In this document: positions 1,240 through 31,129 of the stretch, piece after piece
How positions within the stretch are numbered: the stretch's first letter is position 1
Layout: each line of letters opens with the position of its first letter
Origin: Clostridiales bacterium
Lineage (GTDB): Bacteria; Bacillota; Clostridia; Lachnospirales; CAG-274
DNA: 39,114 nt
Assembly: GCA_021201395.1 (NCBI GenBank)
Contig: JAJQFB010000022.1
Coordinates: 1-39,114 of the forward strand
Direction of reading: 5' to 3'
Translations under genes and position numbers: made by a program
Notes under the pieces: generated by a model
Told to the model about the DNA's origin: nothing
What the model saw: the letters and a program-made list of their open reading frames with translations, nothing else
Databases searched by the model: none

Positions 1240-1857
1240 TTATTCTTCAACCGTAAAGCTGTAGGCTGAATCTAAAACCTTCGAGAAAATTTGGGCTGCG
1301 TCAGAGGCGGTTATTTCCCCGTCCCCGTCTACGTCCACAAATTCAAATTCCGCCTTTATTTCAAAGGCCGAATCCAAAACATTGCTTAAAACAACAGCCG
1401 TGTCGTTTGCCGTAACGACTCCGCTTAAATCCGCATCGCCGTAAAGCCCCGTTGCTTCGCTTCCGCTGCCCCCTGTTGTGTCGGTTGTAATGTCAAAGGG
1501 ATATTCATCGGGAGCCTGAGTTTCCGTTGCCCCCACTCTCAAAAGATATTTTTGATTTTCAACAACATCAAGGGTTATGTCAAAGCTTACGCCCTCGGTT
1601 GTATCGGAATATTCTCCGCTTTTAAGTTGGTTAATATAAACTGCATCGTCTATGGTATAGGCTCCCTCATCGTCGGTTTTATACACAAGCATTGTATACT
1701 GCATATCCTCTTCGGGGTCTGTTACAGTTACCTCAGCCGAAACCGTTCCGTCGGAATTTACCGTAACACCCGTTATGTCAACGGCTGCCGCAAAAACGGA
1801 GGCTGTCATTACCGCTATGGTTACAGCGGAAATCAAAACTGCAATAAATTTCTTCAT
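1240..1857 (-). CDS. Secreted protein with C-terminal dockerin type I domain
   Basis: A 205-residue exported protein. The start is ATG 1857, behind GGAGGAGATTAAGT; a longer reading from 1890 would begin before this ribosome binding site. Residues 1-24 form a signal peptide (MKKFIAVLISAVTIAVMTAS). Residues about 25-125 form an unassigned beta-rich domain. Residues about 139-200 contain two calcium-loop repeats, DADLSGVVTANDTAVV and DVDGDGEITASDAAQI, each followed by a helix (VLSNVLDSAF, IFSKVLDSAY), the duplicated F-hand layout of type I dockerins. Dockerins bind cohesins to build cellulosome-like complexes; no cohesin is seen in the window. It is the last gene of the rhodanese-GH3-dockerin operon, 25 nt after the GH3 stop. 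It may be a docking or accessory subunit for the GH3 enzyme; that is inference. Confidence 0.75.
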   Translation of the reverse strand: MKKFIAVLISAVTIAVMTASVFAAAVDITGVTVNSDGTVSAEVTVTDPEEDMQYTMLVYKTDDEGAYTIDDAVYINQLKSGEYSDTTEGVSFDITLDVVENQKYLLRVGATETQAPDEYPFDITTDTTGGSGSEATGLYGDADLSGVVTANDTAVVLSNVLDSAFEIKAEFEFVDVDGDGEITASDAAQIFSKVLDSAYSFTVEE

Positions 1858-1882
1858 ACTTAATCTCCTCCTTCCGCTGTTA

Positions 1883-4800
1883 TCACTCATAGGTAACTAT
1901 CATAGCAAATACATACTTGTTGCTGCTTCCGCCGTAGGTATAGACGGGCTGTGAGAAGTCGGTTATTTCAGCCGTCACCTCGTTAAGGCCGCTTGTGTCA
2001 TAGGTGGTCGAACGGGCAAGTTCAGCAGTTCCTCCTTGGGCTATAACCTGATACCTGTCGGCGTTGGGGCTGTTAAAAAGTACGGTTACGGTACACTTTT
2101 CATAGCCTGAAACCGATGTGAAATAAAGACATCTCTTAGTTGTGCCTCCGGAGCCTGCCTGTAAGCCTCTCGTAAAGTTATAGGTGGTTCCTGCCAAAGT
2201 ATAGGAATATTTAGCGCTCTTTTCCGTGAAGCCGCCGTAGCCTGAAAGACCGTTTACTGTCGTAAGAGCAACACCGTCGGTTGAGCCGTAGAAAGAATCG
2301 TAGTCGCTGTCTGAGAAGTTATAAACTACAATAGCCGCGTCCTCTGAGATGGTGTAGGTATGGTCGATTTTATCGCTTAAGGGCTTCATAGTGTCTATGC
2401 TGTCCCAAATGTAAAGCTCAATCTCCTCGCCGCTGTCAAAAGACCCTTCTATAACATATTCGCCGCTGTCGCCTATTTCCGTTTGGACGATTCTGTCAAG
2501 CTCTCCGCTTGTATCGTAAACCGCCGCTATCAAAACTGCACTCGGCTCCATATCGTCGCCGCTGTAGGTTATGACGGTTTCTATAGTGCCGTAGACCGTA
2601 TTGTCGGCACTGTCTATTGTGTAAACCGCCGTTCCCGAAGCAGGCTTAACTCTTATTTCAGCCATATCCGCAATAGCCGTTTCAACGGTTTCCGCAAGCA
2701 AATCAGAGTCAATTTCAGCTTTTACGGATTCACAAGCCGTTTCGTAAATAGAAGTAATAAGACCCCAGTTTGTTTCGGAATAGTCATCGCTTGAATAGGA
2801 CTCGTAGGCCTCCTTAAGCTCTGCAAGAGCCTCCTCTATCATTTCCTCCGTTACAGCCGCCTTTGTCTGATTAACAATGGGAATTTCAGCCGTCTGTGTA
2901 ACGCCGTCAACGGTTACGCTTGCGGTTATAATTGCCGTTCCGTCCTCTGTGCCGGCTGTTATAAGACCCTCTGAGTCAACAACCGCTACGCTTTCATCGC
3001 TTGAAGAATAGCTTACGGAAGCTTCGCTTAAATCAACCTCAGCTTCGTCTGACATATAAGCGCTTATGTTTGCCTCAACTGAGGTAAGGGTCGCCGCAAG
3101 GGTTCCGTCCTCGTTTACTGCGCCTACAACCGTAATTCCCGTGGGAATAGCACTTACTACACTTAATGTGCTGTCAAGGCTGCCTGTTACGGTGAAATTC
3201 TTCGTAAGCATACCGCTGTCGTCTGCGTTCTTTCCTACCATAAGCTTATATGTTCCTGCCTGAACATATTCTGTCTGAGTTTCTTCACTGTAGAAGTGAA
3301 GGTCGGGAATATCAACCGTAATTGAAACATTTGCCGATTCTCCCGGTTCAAGGGTTACTCTGTCGAAGCCCTTGAGCTGTTTAAGGGGAAGATTGACGCC
3401 GTCGCCGCCGGGGGAAGCTATATAAAGCTGAACAACCTCGCTGCCTGTTCTCTCTCCTGTGTTGGTAACCGTTACGGAAGCTGTTATACTGCCGTTTGCA
3501 TCAATGCTTGTGTCTGAAATGTTAAGGTTTGTATATTCAAAATCGGTGTATGTAAGACCGTAGCCGAAAGAATAAACGGGGGTTCCGCTGTAATACTGAT
3601 AGGTTCTTCCGGGATAGTTTGTTTCCTGTCTTATTTTGTAGTTTTCGTTTCTGTACCATGTAATGCCCTCGCTGTCCTTTACGCCTGAGGTGTTAACGGG
3701 CATCTTAAGCAGGTCGGCCGGGTCATACCATGTTGTTGAAAGTCTGCCTGAGGGGTTTACCTGTCCCGCTAAAATCTTAGCAAGGGAAAGACCCTGTTTC
3801 TGGCCGTTATAGCAACTCCAAATAATAGCCTTGCAGTTATCCTCAAATGTGGAAATATCCATCTGGCCTACAGTCTGTAAAACAACAACTGTCTTGTCGG
3901 GGTAAGCCGCCGCTATTTCAGCCACATGAGCCTCGTGTGAAGGCATAGCTATGGAGGAGCGGTCGCTTGACTCTTTAGCGTCTGAGGTGGTTGTTGTGCC
4001 GTAGGCTATAATAACGTCAGCCTCGTCAAGCTGTGTTTTATAGGCCTCTACGGAAAATTCGGAGCTTGCGGAAACGCTTAAGTAAAGGTCAGCCGTAGAA
4101 TTATAACCGCCTGAAGCTCCCGTATATTCAGCCGTTACTTCAACATAGGTGTCAAGTGAATCCGTGGTTTCCGTGGCAAGGGAAGCTACCTGAAGAGTGC
4201 TGCTGCCGTAGCCCAAAAGAAGTGTTCCGCCGGGTGAATCATAGCCCGTTGAAATCTCGGCTTTAACGGAAACAACGTCCGAAAAGTCAACTCCCTCTAT
4301 AACGGCGGAGCCGCTTGAGGTTATATTTATAAGAGATGAACCGCTGACCGTTAAGCCGCTTGTGCTTGCTGCTTTTGAAAGGTCAACTGACACGGCAGTG
4401 CCATCGCTCTTAACAAGAGTTAAGGATTTAAGGTTAAGTATAACCGTTGAATCGTCTACATTGCCTAAATAGTGTACCTCTGCGTCGGGGTGGGTCTCAG
4501 CCAAAACCTCAACAAGACCCTCATAGGGTGAGGTTGTGTCAACAGGTTCGCCGGAGTAATCGCCTAAATAGGTTGTGTCCGCCAAATCTCCCACTATAGC
4601 CACGTTTGTAACGGTGTCCGCAAAGGGAAGAATATCGTCCTCGTTTTTAAGAAGAACCCAGCTTTCCTCCGCCGCCGTTTCCGCAAGGGCAACGTGTTTG
4701 GAAGCTTCCAAAACGGAAGATGTTATGCTCCTATAGGAAACATTGCTGTCAAATTCGCCTGTTCTGAATCTCTGTAAGAAAAGTCTGTAAACCGCAAGGT

Positions 4801-5845
4801 CAATTTCTTCCTCTGATAAATAGCCCTCTTCAACAGCTTCGTATAATACAGCCTGTGAAACGGAGCCGCAGTCAAGATCGTTTCCTGCCTGAATGGCAAG
4901 AGCCGCCGTGGCCGACTGGGGAACGTCTGAAAGAGTTTCCGCATCGGGAAAAAGTGTTCTCTTATATGTTGCTCTTGAATTTAAATTGTTTACAGAGCCG
5001 CAGTCCCCTACTACATAGCCCAAAAAGCCCCATTTATTTCTCAAAAGCTCGTTTAAGAGATAGCTGTTTGCACTTGAGGGTATGTAGTCGTAAAGTGTTT
5101 CGCCGTCTCTTGTTATTGATGTGGCGTTATATGAGCTCATTACGGAAGCAGGATCAGCGTCTTTTGCAATGTCCTCAAAGGCTCTGCCGTAATAATCTCT
5201 TAGGGTCTGCTCGTCCATAACGGAGGAGCCGCCCTGTCTTTCGTTTTCGCAGTTGTTTGCTATGAAATGCTTAAGTGTTGCTATTGTTTTTAAATATGTA
5301 TCATCGTCCCCCTGCATACCCTTTACAAATTCCGTGCCATAGGAAGCTGTAAGGTAGGGGTCCTCTCCGTAGGTTTCGTCGTTTCTGCCCCATCTGGGGT
5401 CTCTTGCCATATTTATAGTGGGACACCAGTAGGAAAGGTCGGACGTACCTCTTTTGGCCGCCATACCTCTGGCTTCGGTCGATATAACGTCCGCCACTTC
5501 GGCTATAAGGTCTGTGTCCCATGAGTTTGACATAGAAAGGTCGGAGGGGAAGCTTGTGGCCTGTCCCTGCCTTGCTACGCCGTGGAGAGCCTCTCTCCAG
5601 TAATAATAGGATTTAACCCCTAACCTCGAAATTGCCGAAGCCGAATGGCCTAACTGGGAAACCCTCTCTTCAAGGGTCATCCTCGAAACAAGGTCAGCCG
5701 CTCTTTCTTCAAATGATAAGCTTTCGTTTTGATGTGGTAACACTCCGTCGTCTCCTATAACCGCTCCGCTTGCAAGGTTCGTTCCCGACAGTGTCATAAC
5801 CGCCGCAAGCCCTGCTGATAACAGTTTCTTAAATCTCCGCTTCAT
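1883..5845 (-). CDS. Secreted multidomain GH3 glycoside hydrolase (beta-xylosidase/beta-glucosidase type)
   Basis: A 1320-residue secreted enzyme. Start ATG 5845 is preceded by GGAGGGAAAA; the in-frame ATG at 5881 lies inside the upstream gene. Signal peptide at residues 1-27. The GH3 N-terminal barrel covers about 42-400, with RDPRWGRNDETYGEDPYL (148-165), KHFIANNCENERQ (192-204) and the expected nucleophile Asp281 in YVVGDCGSV. The GH3 C-terminal domain is interrupted by a beta-rich insert, probably a CBM6- or PA14-like module. Then follow a fibronectin III-like domain (about 795-880), a Big2-like Ig domain (905-993), a helical FIVAR-like spacer (996-1067) and two beta-rich modules to the end. 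The sequence around WREALHGVARQGQ is closest to bacterial beta-xylosidases, but substrate cannot be fixed from sequence. It releases terminal sugars from plant or host glycans outside the cell. Middle gene of the rhodanese-GH3-dockerin operon. Confidence 0.9.
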   Translation of the reverse strand: MKRRFKKLLSAGLAAVMTLSGTNLASGAVIGDDGVLPHQNESLSFEERAADLVSRMTLEERVSQLGHSASAISRLGVKSYYYWREALHGVARQGQATSFPSDLSMSNSWDTDLIAEVADVISTEARGMAAKRGTSDLSYWCPTINMARDPRWGRNDETYGEDPYLTASYGTEFVKGMQGDDDTYLKTIATLKHFIANNCENERQGGSSVMDEQTLRDYYGRAFEDIAKDADPASVMSSYNATSITRDGETLYDYIPSSANSYLLNELLRNKWGFLGYVVGDCGSVNNLNSRATYKRTLFPDAETLSDVPQSATAALAIQAGNDLDCGSVSQAVLYEAVEEGYLSEEEIDLAVYRLFLQRFRTGEFDSNVSYRSITSSVLEASKHVALAETAAEESWVLLKNEDDILPFADTVTNVAIVGDLADTTYLGDYSGEPVDTTSPYEGLVEVLAETHPDAEVHYLGNVDDSTVILNLKSLTLVKSDGTAVSVDLSKAASTSGLTVSGSSLINITSSGSAVIEGVDFSDVVSVKAEISTGYDSPGGTLLLGYGSSTLQVASLATETTDSLDTYVEVTAEYTGASGGYNSTADLYLSVSASSEFSVEAYKTQLDEADVIIAYGTTTTSDAKESSDRSSIAMPSHEAHVAEIAAAYPDKTVVVLQTVGQMDISTFEDNCKAIIWSCYNGQKQGLSLAKILAGQVNPSGRLSTTWYDPADLLKMPVNTSGVKDSEGITWYRNENYKIRQETNYPGRTYQYYSGTPVYSFGYGLTYTDFEYTNLNISDTSIDANGSITASVTVTNTGERTGSEVVQLYIASPGGDGVNLPLKQLKGFDRVTLEPGESANVSITVDIPDLHFYSEETQTEYVQAGTYKLMVGKNADDSGMLTKNFTVTGSLDSTLSVVSAIPTGITVVGAVNEDGTLAATLTSVEANISAYMSDEAEVDLSEASVSYSSSDESVAVVDSEGLITAGTEDGTAIITASVTVDGVTQTAEIPIVNQTKAAVTEEMIEEALAELKEAYESYSSDDYSETNWGLITSIYETACESVKAEIDSDLLAETVETAIADMAEIRVKPASGTAVYTIDSADNTVYGTIETVITYSGDDMEPSAVLIAAVYDTSGELDRIVQTEIGDSGEYVIEGSFDSGEEIELYIWDSIDTMKPLSDKIDHTYTISEDAAIVVYNFSDSDYDSFYGSTDGVALTTVNGLSGYGGFTEKSAKYSYTLAGTTYNFTRGLQAGSGGTTKRCLYFTSVSGYEKCTVTVLFNSPNADRYQVIAQGGTAELARSTTYDTSGLNEVTAEITDFSQPVYTYGGSSNKYVFAMIVTYE

Positions 5846-5855
5846 TTTTCCCTCC

Positions 5856-6629
5856 TTAACTGCCTGAGAGGATTTCTTCATATCCTCCCCCGTTGTAAAC
5901 GTTTACAAAGCCAAGCTCCAAAGCCGTTTCTACCGCCCTCTGTGAGCGGACGCCGCTGTAGCAGTAAAAAATCAAAACACTGTCTTTGGAATAGGCCTTT
6001 TCTATATACTCTATTTCGTCAATAGGTATATTTACAGCTTCGGGAATATGCGCCGTTTCATAATCCGCCTTGTCCCTGACGTCTATAAGATAGGCTCCGT
6101 TTACGGTTAAATTAATAATCTCCGAGGGGTCAATCTTATTCTGCCTTAAATCGCCTATGGGAACAAAAGTCCTTTCGCCCCCTTTTCCGTAAATTTCAGC
6201 ATTGCTTCCCGAAAAAATTATTTCCTTTATATCAAAATCACAGACTTTCTTAAGCTTGTAACACTTCTGACAGTCCGTAATTATAATAACAAGCCCTCTG
6301 TCACAGGCGGCATAAAGCTGGTTGCCGAAGCCCTCTATATCGTTTATCGTAAAAACTGTGTCGAAGCTTACGGGAACATCGCTTTCCTCAAAGCTGTCAA
6401 GATGAATGTCCGTCCAAACGGTTCCCATATATGTATAGCTTATACCGTGGAGATCCTTTGAGAGAGCCGCTATGTAATTTCCCCACACAGTCACGTCAGC
6501 AAAATCTCCCGATTCCGAAATTGTATTGTAAAGCTCCGCCCTGTCTTTTGCCATATCCTCTCCTCCGAAAACCGCACTTTGCATACACATAATTAGGACA
6601 AAAGATAAACAAATTATTTTTTTAGCCAA
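5856..6629 (-). CDS. Exported rhodanese-domain protein
   Basis: 257 residues starting at TTG 6629, with GGGGGAGG about 9 nt upstream. Residues 1-22 form a signal peptide (MAKKIICLSFVLIMCMQSAV). Residues about 30-165 are an unrecognised beta-rich domain with several Cys (C109, C120, C123, C130). Residues about 170-255 are a rhodanese fold: YLIDVRDKADYETAHIPEAV, then the active-site loop FYCYSGVRSQRA with catalytic Cys223. Rhodaneses carry persulfide or act as sulfur-relay or thiol proteins. It is the first gene of an operon whose second gene is the GH3 hydrolase, only 10 nt downstream of this stop. A secreted rhodanese leading a glycosidase operon is unusual. Its role there is unknown. Confidence 0.75.
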   Translation of the reverse strand: MAKKIICLSFVLIMCMQSAVFGGEDMAKDRAELYNTISESGDFADVTVWGNYIAALSKDLHGISYTYMGTVWTDIHLDSFEESDVPVSFDTVFTINDIEGFGNQLYAACDRGLVIIITDCQKCYKLKKVCDFDIKEIIFSGSNAEIYGKGGERTFVPIGDLRQNKIDPSEIINLTVNGAYLIDVRDKADYETAHIPEAVNIPIDEIEYIEKAYSKDSVLIFYCYSGVRSQRAVETALELGFVNVYNGGGYEEILSGS

Positions 6630-6661
6630 ATCAATCAGCCTCCCCCTTAATTTATACTTTT

Positions 6662-6690
6662 ATTATACATCTAAAAACCATATTATTAAA
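6662..6690 (-). promoter_or_regulatory. Predicted promoter of the rhodanese-GH3-dockerin operon
   Basis: On the minus strand TATAAT (6662-6667) is preceded, 17 nt away, by TTTAAT (6685-6690), a poor match to TTGACA. A strong -10 with a weak -35 is typical of activator-dependent promoters, and the 40-bp motif at 6691-6730 abuts the -35. Confidence 0.5.
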
Positions 6691-6730
6691 GACGGAAAGT
6701 ATAGGTTTTCGGACAAAAAGTATACTTTGA
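6691..6730 (+). promoter_or_regulatory. Operator-like 40-bp motif, copy 1 (GH3 operon)
   Basis: The segment shares 31 of 40 bases with the reverse complement of 13367-13406 in the araC-type gene leader. Shared blocks are CGGAAAGTAT, TTTT and GGACAAAAAGT, ending in CTTTG. It also holds the inverted repeat AAAGTATA (6696-6703) / TATACTTT (6721-6728). Its position right upstream of the weak -35 fits an activator site. The likely ligand is the AraC-family protein at 12567-13349 (inference). Confidence 0.55.
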
Positions 6731-6857
6731 AAATCAATGTTTTTCATGATTATATTATACAATTAGCTCTTTATTGATTAAGACAAATACTTTCCGAAAA
6801 TTTTAAGGAAAACCAAACAAAGCCGAAAACAATAGACTGTACAAATTGGCGGAATTG

Positions 6858-11270: not shown

Positions 11271-11287
11271 AATTATCAAACCTTTTT

Positions 11288-11511
11288 CTTATGGAACCGC
11301 TGATTAATTAGTTCTTCGCATCTTCACCGCCGATTTTTCCGATTGCTTCGTCACGCATTTTCAGCGTAGGCTCCGACTGCGCCCTCAAATGCCTTCCTCA
11401 TACTCGAAAAAATCTGCAGAGAACCGAAAAGAAGTCCGGCGCCGAAAGCGATTTTGCGCAGCAAAACTTCTGAGGCAAATCTGCTTCGGCGAATTAATCA
11501 TCGTTTCCTTA
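11288..11511. repeat. MITE-like element, copy 1
   Basis: A 224-bp element with terminal inverted repeats. The left end ATGGAACCGCTGATTAATTA (11291-11310) matches the reverse complement of the right end at 16 of 20 bases. Copy 2 at 30918-31086 shares the left TIR, the block ATCTTCAC and TTTTTCCGATTG, the core GTAGGCTCCG, and the right end AAATCTGCTTCGGCGAATTA. Copy 1 carries about 55 bp more near its right end, including the palindrome TTTTGCGCAGCAAAA. No ORF. Small, non-coding and TIR-bounded, it looks like a non-autonomous transposon. It separates the ispF operon promoter from ispF. Confidence 0.65.
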
Positions 11512-11552
11512 TATTTTTATATTTTAAAAGCTTTTAAAGCACTAACACAAAT

Positions 11553-12566: not shown

Positions 12567-13349
12567 TTATCTCAGACTTTTTCTGTAAGCTCCGGGGGTT
12601 TGGCCGAAGTTTTCCTTAAAAGCTCTGTTAAAGGTTCTTTCGCTTTCAAAGCCCGTAAGACTGCTTATTGTTGTTATTGTAAAATCTGTTGTTCTCAACA
12701 GGGCGGCGGCCTTGTTCGTTCTTACCTGACCCAAATATGCCCTTATATTCATCTTGAATTTTTCCGAAAATATTTTCGATATATAGGAATTGCTTAAGTT
12801 AAACTCTTTGGCAAGGGATTCTCTTGTTATAGGGTCGGAATAGTTTGTGTCTATGTAGTTTATTATTTTTTCAACAAGGTTTTTGGTTGGTATTCGTGTG
12901 CTGCGGCTTATTTCCGTTTCTGCGTATAAATTTGAAAATATAATAAGAAGATAGCCCAGTCTTTTTTCCACGGGCATATCCTTATTTATCATTTTAAGAG
13001 CATAAACAGTCTCCTCCGTTATTTTCCCTTTGGAAATAACCGGATTCTTTGTATAGGCGGAATCCGCAAGGGGAAAAAGGGGCAGAAGATAGGCCGGGTC
13101 GAAAACCAAAATAAGCTCGTCCGCCGGAGGCCCCTGCTTCTTGAAATAGCCGTGGGTTGTGTTCGGAAAAATAACCGCCGCCTCCCCCTGTCTTACGGCG
13201 TAGGGCTTTTCCTCAACGGTTATATACTGTGTTCCCGAAAAAACATAGAGAATTTCTATATATTTGTGCATATGCTCCTTAAAAGAAAGCTGTCTCTTAT
13301 TATGTATAACCGAAAAATCCGACTGCAAAACCTCATAAAACAGTGACAA
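12567..13349 (-). CDS. AraC-family transcriptional regulator
   Basis: 260 residues from TTG 13349, which lies 9 nt after GGAGAGG; an earlier TTG at 13370 overlaps that site. An N-terminal cupin sensor domain (HMHKYIEILYVFSGTQYITV, GEAAVIFPNTTHGYF) is followed by two helix-turn-helix motifs, RESLAKEFNLSNSYISKIFS and ITTISSLTGFESERTFNRAF, ending FGQTPGAYRKSLR. Such proteins usually sense a sugar or small metabolite and activate catabolic genes. The leader carries a 40-bp motif shared with the GH3 operon, so this regulator may control that operon and itself. Confidence 0.9.
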   Translation of the reverse strand: MSLFYEVLQSDFSVIHNKRQLSFKEHMHKYIEILYVFSGTQYITVEEKPYAVRQGEAAVIFPNTTHGYFKKQGPPADELILVFDPAYLLPLFPLADSAYTKNPVISKGKITEETVYALKMINKDMPVEKRLGYLLIIFSNLYAETEISRSTRIPTKNLVEKIINYIDTNYSDPITRESLAKEFNLSNSYISKIFSEKFKMNIRAYLGQVRTNKAAALLRTTDFTITTISSLTGFESERTFNRAFKENFGQTPGAYRKSLR

Positions 13350-13366
13350 TATAACACACCTCTCCT

Positions 13367-13406
13367 CCAAAGCAGACTTTTTGTCCTAAAATTCATACTT
13401 TCCGCT
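13367..13406 (-). promoter_or_regulatory. Operator-like 40-bp motif, copy 2 (araC-type gene leader)
   Basis: In gene sense it reads CGGAAAGTAT, TTTT, GGACAAAAAGT, CTTTG, 31 of 40 identical to 6691-6730. It sits directly downstream of the predicted -10 (13411-13416) and runs into the Shine-Dalgarno, a position expected for autorepression. Confidence 0.55.
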
Positions 13407-13410
13407 TCTT

Positions 13411-13439
13411 ATTATATACTTTAAAAAAATATATTACAA
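13411..13439 (-). promoter_or_regulatory. Predicted promoter of the AraC-family gene
   Basis: Minus strand: TTGTAA (13434-13439), 17-nt spacer, TATAAT (13411-13416). Confidence 0.5.
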
Positions 13440-13487
13440 GCATAAATTAAAGGTATCCTCCAAATTTCATTATAATTTATTGTATTA

Positions 13488-13565: not shown

Positions 13566-13923
13566 ATAAAAAATTTTATTTTGCATTTGTTTATTTGTTA
13601 TTTTGGGCTTTTTACAGGCTTTCGGATGGGACAGCATTACCGTTATTATAAACGGTGAGGAGCTTGACTGCGAAACGGAGCCTATGCTCATAAACGGCAG
13701 AACAATGCTTCCCGTCAGGGATATTTTTTTTGAAGCTTTCGGCACAGAGGTAAGCTATGAGGCTGAAACAAAGACCGTAATGGGTCTTAAGGGAGATAAA
13801 GTAATTGTTCTGACTGTCGGCAGCAATATAATATAGATAAACGGCGAAAAAAAGGAAACGGACACGGCTCTTGTTGTTTCCGACAGAAGAACCTTTGATT
13901 CGGTAAGATACCTTTCAGGATAA
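13566..13923 (+). pseudogene. Truncated stalk-domain (copper amine oxidase N-terminal-like) gene
   Basis: From 13574 the frame gives a signal-peptide-like run (ILFCICLFVILGFLQAFG), then a stalk domain: VIINGEELDCETEPMLINGR, TMLPVRDIFFEAFGTEVSYE. It is a paralog of the gene at 15522. The expected start position, 9 nt after GAGGAG, reads ATA, followed by A6 where A7 would restore frame. An in-frame TAG lies at 13834, after which INGEKKETDTALVVSDRRTF continues the second stalk repeat before a stop at 13921. Stalk domains occur in cell-surface and secreted proteins of Clostridia. With three defects and no C-terminal part, this is a decayed paralog. Confidence 0.65.
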
Positions 13924-14047
13924 ACACATGAATTAAAATTCTATTAAGAAACTGTTGCAGAGCTAAACTCAATTCACTGAATATCAACACCGCCCGAAGT
14001 CATTTGTTGTAAATCGATGTCTAAATAAAGCTGAAAGGGGAATGATT

Positions 14048-14977
14048 ATGGCAAGAGTGTTATCGGAAAACGAACTGAAGGTCTTCGTTAAACAGGTTTT
14101 GGATCTTGAACTTTCATACTATCGGCAAAACAAATTGTCGAATGCTTTATTCGAACGGGTTACAAACGCCAGAGAGAATCTTGAAGAACTGAATAAAGTC
14201 GCAAAAAACGATAAACCTCCGAAAAAAGAATTATTAGTGGATTCAATATTTACTACTGAAACTTTTATGGCTTTGGCTTGCGGAGCGGCGTGGGGAGCAA
14301 TTATAGGAGTCGGTGTATATCTGGTAACTCACTTCATGTTTAATATGAGTTTCTCATTGAAAAACCTCGTCATACTTTTGGCAGTAGTGGGTGCAATTAT
14401 TGCGACTGTTTACATAGTTATTACCGACAGGCAGAGCGAAAAGGATGTATATAAGCATCTGCTTCACGAGTATAACGAACGTGAACAGAAAAGAACACAT
14501 GACATACCGTACTATAAAAAATCTATTGCTGTGTGTTCAGAATTGATGGAATTAGGAAATAAGGAGCATTCAGACACTATGAAGCTTCTGATTGAGTACT
14601 ACAATTTAGGCTACATATATCCTAAGTACCAGGGACTTGTTCCGGTGAGCACAATATATGAATATCTTGATTCAGGGTGGTGCTCTTCGCTTACAGGTGC
14701 CGACGGAGCATATAACCTCTATGAGAGCGAACTCAGACAGAACTTGATAATCGAAAAACTTGATGATGTGCTCGTAAAACTTGATGAAATAGTATATAAT
14801 CAGAAATTACTTTCCGACGCAATTGCGGAAAGCAACAGACTGATATCTTCACTTTGTACATCTGTTGAAGTAATGAACAACAACACAGCGGTTACCGCTT
14901 GCTACAGCAAGGTCACGGCAGAGAACACAAAATACCTCTCAATGCTCGCAACCTATGAAGTTCTGAGCGGGCATTAA
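14048..14977 (+). CDS. Uncharacterised two-TM protein with C-terminal coiled coil
   Basis: 309 residues, family not recognised. ATG 14048 is 7 nt after AAAGGGG; ATG 14042 is too close to it. Residues 1-65 are helical and charged. Two membrane helices follow: about 72-98 (ACGAAWGAIIGVGVYLV) and 106-126 (LVILLAVVGAIIATVYIVIT). Residues 127-225 are soluble, with a Tyr-rich segment (LLIEYYNLGYIYPKYQGLVP) and GADGAYNLYESELRQN. Residues about 225-285 form a coiled coil (IIEKLDDVLVKLDEIVYNQ). Likely a membrane-anchored helical scaffold or sensor. It looks more AT-rich than the flanking core genes and sits between two broken stalk genes, suggesting an acquired segment. Confidence 0.65.
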   Translation: MARVLSENELKVFVKQVLDLELSYYRQNKLSNALFERVTNARENLEELNKVAKNDKPPKKELLVDSIFTTETFMALACGAAWGAIIGVGVYLVTHFMFNMSFSLKNLVILLAVVGAIIATVYIVITDRQSEKDVYKHLLHEYNEREQKRTHDIPYYKKSIAVCSELMELGNKEHSDTMKLLIEYYNLGYIYPKYQGLVPVSTIYEYLDSGWCSSLTGADGAYNLYESELRQNLIIEKLDDVLVKLDEIVYNQKLLSDAIAESNRLISSLCTSVEVMNNNTAVTACYSKVTAENTKYLSMLATYEVLSGH

Positions 14978-15486: not shown

Positions 15487-15521
15487 ACAAATCTTTTATG
15501 AGGATAAAGGAGAAGAGGATT

Positions 15522-16680
15522 ATGAAAAAATTTGTTATAGGTCTTTGTCTTTTTGCCGCCTTGAATACAGGGCTGGTTTTGGGAGCGGAGGACGGAATCA
15601 CCCTAAACATTGACGGAGAGGAGCTTGTCTGCGACGTGGCGCCTCAAATTATAGACGGCAGGACGATGGTTCCCGTAAGGGCTATTTTTGAAGCCGTAGG
15701 GGCAGAGGTAAGCTATGAGGCCGGAACAAAAACCGTTACCGCCGTTAAAGATGATATAACCGTCATAATGGTTATAGACAGCACAACAGAGGAGATAAAC
15801 GGCGAAGAGGTAACAATGGACACAGCCCCCGTTATAATAGAGGGCAGAACCTTAGCCCCCGCGAGATACGTGGCAGAGGCTTTCGGCTGCAAGGTGGGCT
15901 GGGACGGCAATACCAAAACCGTAGACATAACCACGTCAAAGGAGGCCGAGCCGGAAACAGAAACAGAAGCGGAAACCGATGAAATAACAGAAGAAGCCAC
16001 GGAAAACGGCAATATATACGGTTATTTTGATTTATCTTTTTTCCGTGATAACACATTAGACATCGAGCCTGTGGACTACAGCGGAATAAGCAGCGAAAAC
16101 ACCGCAGGTCACGAGGAGCTGAGATCACGCTTTGAGCAGGATTATTTATACTGCCAAATAACCGTAAACAGCGATAATCTGTCCTCAAGCTTAAAAAAGA
16201 GGATTATGAAACCTTCTGCAATGCAATATATTCCTTTTGGGACGCAAATTTGTATTTCTACGCTGTGCATCAGCTTACGGAGCAATATGACGAATATAAT
16301 GACATAACCGACATTCCCGATGATGTTTTTAATGCCTATATGAACGGTCTTATAAACGACTGCCGGCTGTATGTTGAGGACAATATGGCTATTATTGTCG
16401 AGGGAACAGGAGAAGGCTCGGCACTGCTCCTTATTGAAATGGCGGAGGATACATACGAGGGAAGCTGTCTTTACATAGCTGTTGTATTTGACGAGGACGG
16501 CAATATTAAATATTACACTCTCGAAAAGACCTCCGGCGAGGACTATTCTCTTTGCGAAAAACCGCTTCCTCTTCCGGGTATCTTTCAACAAACAGCTCCG
16601 TTACAGCAAGCTTAGACAAGAACGATGAAGAACTCAAAATGACATTTTTGCAGACAGTCTGTGCCGATTATTTTTCATAA
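15522..16680 (+). pseudogene. Secreted stalk-domain protein with two frameshifts
   Basis: ATG 15522 follows GGAGAAGAGGATT. Residues 1-22 form a signal peptide. Two stalk (copper amine oxidase N-terminal-like) repeats follow: GEELVCDVAPQIIDGRTMVP with VRAIFEAVGAEVSYE, and TMDTAPVIIEGRTLAPARYV with AEAFGCKVGW. A Thr/Glu-rich linker (about 145-165) leads to a C-terminal domain. The frame breaks at A6 16193-16198; one extra A continues EDYETFCNAIYSFWDANLYF and on through ALLLIEMAEDTYEGS. It breaks again at A5 16557-16561; one extra A gives TASSSGYLSTNSSVTASLDK to TAA 16680. The restored protein would be about 386 residues. Two single-A losses in one otherwise well-preserved gene suggest consensus error or recent decay. 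Confidence 0.75.
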
Positions 16681-16759: not shown

Positions 16760-18508
16760 TCAATTTATTAATTTTTCGAGGCTGTCTATATCCTTTAAAA
16801 TGTTCTTTATTCCCTTTTTCCAAAAGGCTCTGTCAGTAAAGTCGATTTCCGCTAAGAGACCAACCTCTCTGACGGTTTTTTTGCCTGCGTTTCTTAATAT
16901 GGTGTCATATTGGGGAACAAAGGCTTCCCCCTTTTCCTCATACAGGGCGAAAAGACTTCTTGCGAAAAGGTCGCCGAAAGCGTAGGGATAGTTGTAATAA
17001 TTAAAATCGGCGTCATAATAGTGGGGCTTACAGAGCCACATATAGGGGTGGAGGAAGTTTACGTCAAGCCCCTGAAAATAGGCTTTTTTCTGGGCTTCCT
17101 CCATAAGGGAGCAGATTTCCCCGGCGGAGAGGCCGCCCTTTTCCCTTTCTTTAAAGAAGCTGTCCTCAAAGAGGAACCGTGAATATATGTCGCAAATACT
17201 TTGAAGCTCCCCCGAAAGGCGGCTTTCCTTTACGGTCAAAAGATTTTTCCCTGAAAAGACCTTTTCCGCCCGGCTGTAGGCCAGATTTTCACAGAAAGTT
17301 GAAGCCGTTTCCGCCAGTGTCATAGGGTAGTCTGAATTTACGGGGCTTTCCTGTTTAAGAGCCTCGTTGTGATAGCCGTGGCCGAGTTCATGGGAAAGGG
17401 TTATAATATCCTCAAAATTCCCCGAAAAATTCATTAAAACACGGCTTTCCTCCAGAGCCTTAATATATTCACAGTAGGCTCCCCCTACCTTACCCTTTCT
17501 CGGAAAAGCGTCAATCCACTGCCCCTCAAAGGCCTTGTCTGCAAAGGCTCCAAGCTTTTCGGAAAAACCGCCGTAGGTGCTTTTGACAAAATCCACAGCC
17601 TGTTCAAATGTGAATTTAAGCTCACTCTTTCCTACGGGGGCAAAAAGGTCGTAAAAGGGCAGTCTTTTCTCTCCCAAATAATCCGCCTTTATTCTGTAAA
17701 ACCTGTTGAGCTCACAGATGTTATCCTCTACCGCCCCAAGCATAGCCCCCAAAATATCAAGGTCGATGCCTGAGCCTATGACGGATTCCTCAAGGGGAGA
17801 TTTATAGCCCCTCATCTCACAGAGGGAAATAACCTCGCCCTTAATTGCGTTAAGACAGGCCGCCCCTACAGAAGAAATTTTACCGTAGGCCTTAAGCTCA
17901 CTTTCATAGGCTTCACGGCGAACGTTTCTGTCGGCACTGTAGGCCATTCCCCTGATTTCCGAAAGGGGAACCTCCCTGCCCCTGAACTCACACATAAGGG
18001 AGGAGCTTACACCCTCCCAAAGCTTTTGCCAGCTTTCGGAGCCTGTAGATTTAAGCTTCGCGGCCGTTTTTTCCGCTTCGGGGCTTAAGCTGTGGGCGGC
18101 GGCCTCCTTTTCGCGCCTTAAAAAAAAGATATGCTCCTTTATGACGGAATTTTTGCTGAATTTTTCTATATCTATGCCTTTAATATATTCCCTGAAAAGA
18201 CTTTCGCTCCAAGCTGCTTTGGCTGAAACCGCCGAAACCCCGTCGAAAAGCTTCGCCGCCTGTTTGTTTTCCGTGTCTGCGGAAAGTATAAGATTGAGAT
18301 AGGCCGAAATTTTATTATAAAGGAGAATATCGTTTACCTTGTCGATATACCCCTCTATTACCCTTTCCGGGTCGGCCTTATCGTTAAAATTTACCTCCGC
18401 AAAGGTGTTGAGAGCGTCAAGCTTTTCGGAATATTCGGAAATATCGTTTAAAAGCTCCTGACAGTCAACGCTTTTATATATATTATCAAGCCTCCATCTT
18501 ACGTCCAT
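16760..18508 (-). CDS. pepF: M3-family oligoendopeptidase F
   Basis: 582 residues, near the usual 600. The zinc site is H373-E-L-G-H377 in LSHELGHGYHNEA, with the third ligand E400 in MTLAETASTFCE. The N-terminal half is the helical M3 oligopeptidase domain (WRLDNIYKS start typical of PepF). It is a cytosolic metallopeptidase that cuts oligopeptides of roughly 7-20 residues. ATG 18508 lies 8 nt after AAAGGG. It follows apgM by 39 nt on the same strand, so the two may be cotranscribed. Confidence 0.92.
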   Translation of the reverse strand: MDVRWRLDNIYKSVDCQELLNDISEYSEKLDALNTFAEVNFNDKADPERVIEGYIDKVNDILLYNKISAYLNLILSADTENKQAAKLFDGVSAVSAKAAWSESLFREYIKGIDIEKFSKNSVIKEHIFFLRREKEAAAHSLSPEAEKTAAKLKSTGSESWQKLWEGVSSSLMCEFRGREVPLSEIRGMAYSADRNVRREAYESELKAYGKISSVGAACLNAIKGEVISLCEMRGYKSPLEESVIGSGIDLDILGAMLGAVEDNICELNRFYRIKADYLGEKRLPFYDLFAPVGKSELKFTFEQAVDFVKSTYGGFSEKLGAFADKAFEGQWIDAFPRKGKVGGAYCEYIKALEESRVLMNFSGNFEDIITLSHELGHGYHNEALKQESPVNSDYPMTLAETASTFCENLAYSRAEKVFSGKNLLTVKESRLSGELQSICDIYSRFLFEDSFFKEREKGGLSAGEICSLMEEAQKKAYFQGLDVNFLHPYMWLCKPHYYDADFNYYNYPYAFGDLFARSLFALYEEKGEAFVPQYDTILRNAGKKTVREVGLLAEIDFTDRAFWKKGIKNILKDIDSLEKLIN

Positions 18509-30893: not shown

Positions 30894-30917
30894 TTTTTAT
30901 TTTACGTTCTTAAAACT

Positions 30918-31086
30918 CTTAAGGAATCGCTGATTAATTAGCTCATCGCATCTTCACTGCTGCTTTTTCCGATTGCGGCGTCAGTCGCTTTTGACGTAGG
31001 CTCCGGCTACGCCTGCAAGCGACTTCCTTGCCCTCGAAAAAAAGCAACATCAAATCTGCTTCGGCGAATTAATCATCGCTTCCTTA
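30918..31086. repeat. MITE-like element, copy 2
   Basis: 169 bp. The left TIR (AAGGAATCGCTGATTAATTA at 30921-30940) matches the reverse complement of the right end (AATTAATCATCGCTTCCTTA). The interior matches copy 1 (11288-11511) over most of its length but lacks the extra 55 bp near the right end. No ORF. It sits 24 bp after the SpoIID-like gene. Confidence 0.65.
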
Positions 31087-31129
31087 AAATATTAAAAGAA
31101 GCTGTTGTACCGAAAAGCGCACGAAAGAT

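Follow-up and report, generated by a model that had tools for sequence, protein, structure and literature searches.

The locus examined here raises the question of why a GH3 operon and a gene for an AraC-type regulator should have similar sequences in front of them. The window (the whole stretch of 39,114 nucleotides that was analysed) contains both, and the initial annotation had proposed that a 40-bp motif upstream of each serves a single regulator, which activates the operon and represses its own gene.

The operon and the regulator

The genes concerned are as follows.

1240..1890, minus strand: dockerin-domain protein, last gene of the operon (PF00404, E 3.1e-8)
1883..5881, minus strand: GH3 beta-xylosidase-like enzyme, 1332 aa (PF00933/PF01915/Fn3-like)
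5856..6629, minus strand: rhodanese-domain protein, probably secreted, first gene of the operon (PF00581, E 1.6e-15)
12567..13349, minus strand: AraC-type regulator, 260 aa, with an N-terminal cupin and a C-terminal double HTH (PF12833, E 4.2e-21; PF02311, E 2.7e-9)

The nearest NCBIfam model to the GH3 enzyme was that of the xylosidase Xyl3A, with a score below the cut-off, and the best PDB matches were GH3 beta-xylosidases. Because the enzyme is closest to beta-xylosidases, a xylan-type inducer is our guess for the regulator. The C-terminal double HTH of the regulator, the mark of its family, scored above the curated cut-offs (with PF00165 at E 6.9e-13 in addition to PF12833) and matched the DNA-binding domains of RamA, SoxS, Rob, MarA and AraC in the PDB, while the N-terminal cupin that is typical of the AraC subtype was also above cut-off (PF02311 AraC_binding, 37.3 bits; PF07883 Cupin_2, 35.3 bits). 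Scores against the NCBIfam equivalogues AraC, MelR, RhaS and RhaR were all far under their cut-offs (e.g., MelR, 62.6 vs. 253 bits; AraC, 57.2 vs. 208), and on these scores the regulator is judged not to be AraC, MelR or RhaS itself.

Similarity of the two sites

An ungapped comparison of positions 6691-6730 with 13367-13406 in reverse complement gave 31 identical bases out of 40, as had been claimed, and the core of the motif (CGGAAAGTATNNNTTTTNGGACAAAAAGTNTNCTTTG) had two matches in the window at up to 3 mismatches and none in 100 dinucleotide shuffles. The match is real, but 40 bp was too short an extent for it, as the similarity of the two copies spans ~86 bp (6644-6729 vs. 13453-13368, 74%) and the shared block covers the whole divergent promoter region. 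A comparison of every ungapped pair of 40-bp stretches across the window gave nine with at least 30/40 identity, the 6691/13367 pair among them; several of the others were self-palindromes, a dispersed repeat or paralogous coding sequence.

The initial annotation had named a dispersed repeat as the finding that would speak against its proposal. A scan of the whole 2.32-Mb genome with the core returned only the same two matches, at the operon and at araC (reversed control, 0), and since the genome has only two matches and the shuffles none, a dispersed repeat is rejected. A larger regulon in the window's genome was rejected, as a relaxed tandem pattern identified the two sites and one 3-mismatch match vs. 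two matches for the reversed control; these genome-wide scans employed patterns rather than a weight matrix. A role at the RNA level was also rejected, because the operon copy precedes the operon promoter and the sole Rfam match in the window was the tRNA.

The divergent pair in congeners and its separation

The initial annotation had considered the genes to be otherwise unrelated, which was wrong: in 8/8 searched congeners an araC orthologue (53-79% identical; frameshifted in G004) is immediately divergent from the same rhodanese/GH3 operon, with one shared intergenic region, and the dockerin gene has the same place in the operon in six of the eight (G001, G002, G003, G004, G005 and G007). 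In the window's genome araC is 6.7 kb from the operon on the same strand, so that the two are not a divergent pair there, and by comparison with the congeners the window arrangement is read as a derived, split form of that pair.

Alignment of the congener intergenic regions extends over the site and the two promoters. Where the region is undivided, the araC promoter is TTGNAT-17-TATAAT (TACAAT in G008), its -35 is overlapped by the operon -10 (TATAAT, other strand), and the operon -35 is weak (1-3/6) and abutted by the tandem site. The two window copies align with the single intergenic region of G003 at 83% over 75 bp and 77% over 71 bp, and the window sites are taken to have arisen by the copying of a single divergent promoter region in an ancestor. 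As they are less alike to each other (74%) than each is to G003, the duplication may predate the split between G003 and the window's genome (G000), or decay may have been fast.

The window has a tRNA-Thr/sigH-cysS-ispF cluster adjoining the operon and an HxlR gene beside araC; in the congeners, both sigH-cysS-ispF and the HxlR gene are located on different contigs or far away. The tRNA-Thr is beside sigH in G003, and the join of the operon to tRNA-Thr/sigH was seen only in G000. A simple 6.7-kb inversion with the site duplicated at its ends was dropped as an explanation, as the intervening genes are elsewhere in congeners, and at least two rearrangements are needed because sigH-cysS-ispF and the HxlR gene lie elsewhere. 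All of the genomes are draft assemblies (138 contigs for that of the window), and the split is present in one assembly. Four tests for a decayed araC remnant beside the operon copy were not convincing (p 0.04 to 0.26).

The second HTH has ESERTF/ESEHTF in G000, G003 and G004 and ESIRTF/KSIRTF in the other congeners, which co-varies with CG vs. CA in half-site 1; this was dropped as evidence, as it concerns one clade and hence one event. Frameshifts break each of the three genes (GH3, rhodanese and araC) in G004 (L044, G004:C63, 2049-7721), for which sequencing errors of the draft are more likely than real decay.

Promoters and half-sites of the two copies

The features assigned to the two copies are listed below.

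6657..6715, plus strand (araC orientation): 59-bp putative bidirectional promoter-operator, operon copy, in an ungapped register common to the araC copy and seven congener regions
6662..6667, minus strand: predicted operon -10, TATAAT (6/6), with a 17-bp spacer; present in all seven undivided regions
6685..6690, minus strand: TTTAAT, the predicted weak operon -35 (3/6), immediately next to the site
6658..6686, plus strand: apparent decayed remnant of the araC-direction promoter in the operon copy, TTTTAT-17-TATTAT
6691..6702, plus strand: half-site 1, operon copy, GACGGAAAGTAT; direct repeat, 21-bp period
6712..6723, plus strand: half-site 2, operon copy, GACAAAAAGTAT; direct repeat, 21-bp period
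13382..13440, minus strand: 59-bp putative bidirectional promoter-operator, araC copy, ungapped register
13411..13439, minus strand: predicted araC promoter, TTGTAA-17-TATAAT (10/12 of consensus)
13395..13406, minus strand: half-site 1, araC copy, AGCGGAAAGTAT; ~-2 to +10 of the predicted transcript
13374..13385, minus strand: half-site 2, araC copy, GACAAAAAGTCT; ~+20 to +31 of the predicted transcript

The site starts at the base following the operon -35, which agrees with the activator position that had been annotated for it. At araC the site 13367-13406 covers ~-2 to +38 of the transcript, whose start is predicted near 13404, the operon start being predicted near 6655, both on the minus strand; the annotated repressor position is supported on that predicted start, and the site is over the regulator's own transcription start as in an autoregulated pair. 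In the operon copy TTTTAT and TATTAT replace the araC -35 and -10 and the operon -10 is kept, and in the araC copy TATATT replaces the operon -10 and its own -35 is slightly improved to TTGTAA. Each copy appears to have lost the promoter that it does not need and both to have kept the half-sites, with the promoters called as consensus matches and their decay judged from a few substitutions. The shared block is best described, from its sequence, as a presumptive bidirectional promoter-operator and more than a protein site.

The site has the form GACGGAAAGTAT-N9-GACAAAAAGTAT at the operon and AGCGGAAAGTAT-N9-GACAAAAAGTCT at araC, with AGTCT in place of AGTAT in half-site 2 of the latter. Among lags of 12-40 bp in 23 upstream regions of araC relatives, that of 21 bp gave the strongest repeat, with a mean of 7.35 matches compared to 6.65 or fewer for every other lag, and z = 5.2 vs. 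shuffles, a value that is no strict probability as the sequences are related and non-independent. Motifs with a 21-bp period have been described for several AraC-family regulators (PMC3870299), and upstream tandem sites were taken as activator sites in PMC8579813. The operator at the operon is a tandem direct repeat with half-sites two helical turns apart against the target -35, as in the AraC/XylS family. The half-site cores are identical at 21/21 positions between the window copies vs. 45/66 elsewhere in the block (Fisher p = 0.002, which is optimistic, as the cores were picked as the best-matching blocks). This conservation is most simply read as the result of selection to keep the operator in both locations, though the promoter changes are few.

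An additional exact half-site 1 (CGGAAAGTAT) occurs at 6787-6796 on the minus strand, ~60-80 bp past the operon site, and another copy of CGGAAAGTAT is inside a gene at 18280-18289; the copy at 6787-6796 may be due to chance or may be a looping site.

A 59-bp register in distant relatives

The distance from the first base of CTTG (in the araC -35) to GNCA of half-site 2 is 59 bp, ungapped, in both window copies and seven congener regions. A matrix built from the genus only identified the same register upstream of AraC relatives of ~27-45% identity (L089, L090, L092, L093, L096, L103, L108, L019 and L020, with L093 being from Paenibacillus tengchongensis), and 0/200 shuffles scored as high; the register was absent upstream of other AraC relatives, e.g., L091, L094 and L099. 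Across 392 genomes of the order, the 59-bp pattern had 13 matches vs. 1 for the reversed pattern, most of the 13 being upstream of AraC relatives. The divergent partners are usually carbohydrate genes and include GH3 genes (L089, L092, L096 and L142), a pectate lyase with CBM6 (L093), Gfo/Idh/MocA oxidoreductases (L103 and L108) and xylose-isomerase-like proteins (L019 and L020). Remoter araC relatives (L100, L102, L103, L104, L106 and L108) are divergent from Gfo/Idh/MocA or ThuA genes, and several of these have a different form of operator, with the end CAAATATTGC.

A description of the 59-bp register was not found in the open literature searched, which is a weak sign of novelty. We suggest tentatively, at a little less than even odds, that an AraC subfamily in Clostridia and Paenibacillus has in common a rigid 59-bp promoter-operator, whose two overlapping divergent promoters would be in competition for RNA polymerase, with the direction determined by a single regulator site. 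On this view the switch has been duplicated and divided in the window's genome, yielding two promoters of one direction each, with the operator retained in both.

Proposed mechanism and alternative explanations

We consider it probable (roughly 0.8) that both sites are copies of an ancestral divergent promoter-operator and are the operators of the AraC-type protein 12567-13349. In the relatives there would be a single intergenic region with overlapping divergent promoters and a tandem AraC site on the araC side. The regulator, when bound to sugar, would occupy the half-sites (21 bp, two helical turns apart) directly upstream of the weak operon -35 and recruit RNA polymerase, so activating the rhodanese-GH3-dockerin operon. 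Its occupancy over ~+1 to +38 of the araC transcript would repress araC, because the site covers the start of that transcript. A rearrangement in the window's genome would then have parted araC from the operon, with the region now present beside both, and the copies would afterwards have lost the unneeded promoter and retained the operator. The common origin of the copies, their conserved half-sites and register, the differences between their promoters and their uniqueness in the genome can be read from the sequence; we infer the binding of the protein, the xylan-type sugar as inducer, the sign of regulation at either promoter and the order of events. The single AraC-type regulator of the initial annotation, acting as activator of the operon and repressor of itself, fits with the form, positions and uniqueness of the sites and with the conserved divergent neighbour.

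As the copies are homologous by descent, their likeness alone is no proof of function at both, and the similarity might be a mere relic of a duplicated intergenic region, with at least one copy no longer binding and either araC not autoregulated or the operon constitutive. The AGTCT in half-site 2 of the araC copy would be consistent with this. However, the half-site cores are identical (21/21 vs. 45/66 for the rest), and the retention at either copy of its own promoter, with apparent loss of the other one, indicates that neutral decay had time to act in other parts of those 86 bp; we regard this explanation as unlikely. To a similar degree we doubt that the logic is opposite or different, such as the operon being repressed without inducer (e.g., by looping to 6787-6796) or araC being activated. 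AraC itself represses by looping and also activates (PMC4760080), and there is the extra exact CGGAAAGTAT on the minus strand, but that half-site is single, the site follows the araC start, a location from which activation is uncommon, and its place upstream of the weak operon -35 is the standard position of an activator.

It is very improbable that a DNA-binding protein other than 12567-13349 uses the motif, as the genome has the motif at the two loci only, the motif adjoins the araC gene in every congener, its 21-bp tandem form is AraC-type, and the 59-bp register is met again in front of even distant members of the AraC subfamily. The least credible origin of the match is chance, a dispersed repeat or an assembly artefact, even for a draft genome of 138 contigs with a real dispersed repeat nearby (11283-11517): shuffles gave 0 matches, only two copies exist genome-wide, and these are 26% diverged and so do not represent a single locus assembled twice.

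If the proposed pair of operators for the AraC-type protein is correct, a regulator, its operator and its target operon have been assigned from sequence alone in an uncultured lineage. The locus would also be a natural test of how a separated divergent pair survives, by a duplicated and kept operator with each copy shedding the promoter it does not need, and the fixed 59-bp register would provide a search pattern for the targets of unassigned AraC regulators near polysaccharide genes.

Other features of the window

Positions 11283-11517 and 30917-31095 carry a non-coding dispersed repeat with blocks of ~128 and 50 bp, for which there were 215 candidates at first look and ~40 scored copies in the genome at 89-95%. 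It had no Rfam match and is possibly a non-autonomous mobile element. Similar copper-amine-oxidase-N-like coding sequence is present at 13620-13890 and 15498-16307 (40-mers identical at 34/40 and 33/40), and the former, just upstream of araC, is without a long open frame and looks degraded. A 311-aa protein encoded at 14042-14977 had no Pfam or NCBIfam match and was found at 95% identity in one of the eight congeners (G001); it is possibly a recent horizontal transfer or mobile piece adjoining the relocated araC.

Comparison with known systems

At E. coli araBAD, araI1 and araI2 are direct-repeat half-sites with a 21-bp period, the proximal one positioned against the target -35, and the site described here is alike in these respects. 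Also shared with E. coli AraC are the divergence of the regulator from its target, which is the arrangement of the congeners here, and an N-terminal cupin-type sugar domain with a C-terminal double HTH, although clear sequence likeness is confined to the DNA-binding half. In contrast to the E. coli system, for which the roles of the AraC sites are given in PMC4760080, one site here would serve both jobs, the two promoters overlap and no looping site is established. A further difference is that the window's genome has the regulator and its target apart, each with its own copy of the site.

E. coli MelR, also of the AraC family, activates the glycosidase operon melAB and represses its own divergent gene; the repression of melR by MelR was reportedly described by Wade and colleagues in 2000, a study to which PMC12825309 refers. 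Activation of a glycosidase operon and repression of the regulator's own gene are both predicted here, but MelR has several sites and a repression loop, whereas here a single tandem site would serve both promoters. Local AraC-family regulators of the RhaR type in Bacillales, Bacteroides and Enterococcus also have motifs with a 21-bp period (PMC3870299, in the part drawn on here). Their targets differ, the likeness is one of period and not of compared motif sequence, and that part of the paper reports no rigid bidirectional promoter. Overlapping divergent elements on both of which RNA polymerase cannot sit are known from the bidirectional promoters of E. coli (PMC12825309); those are pseudo-symmetrical, whereas the element described here combines an overlap of -35 and -10 with an AraC-type site at one end, in a fixed register.
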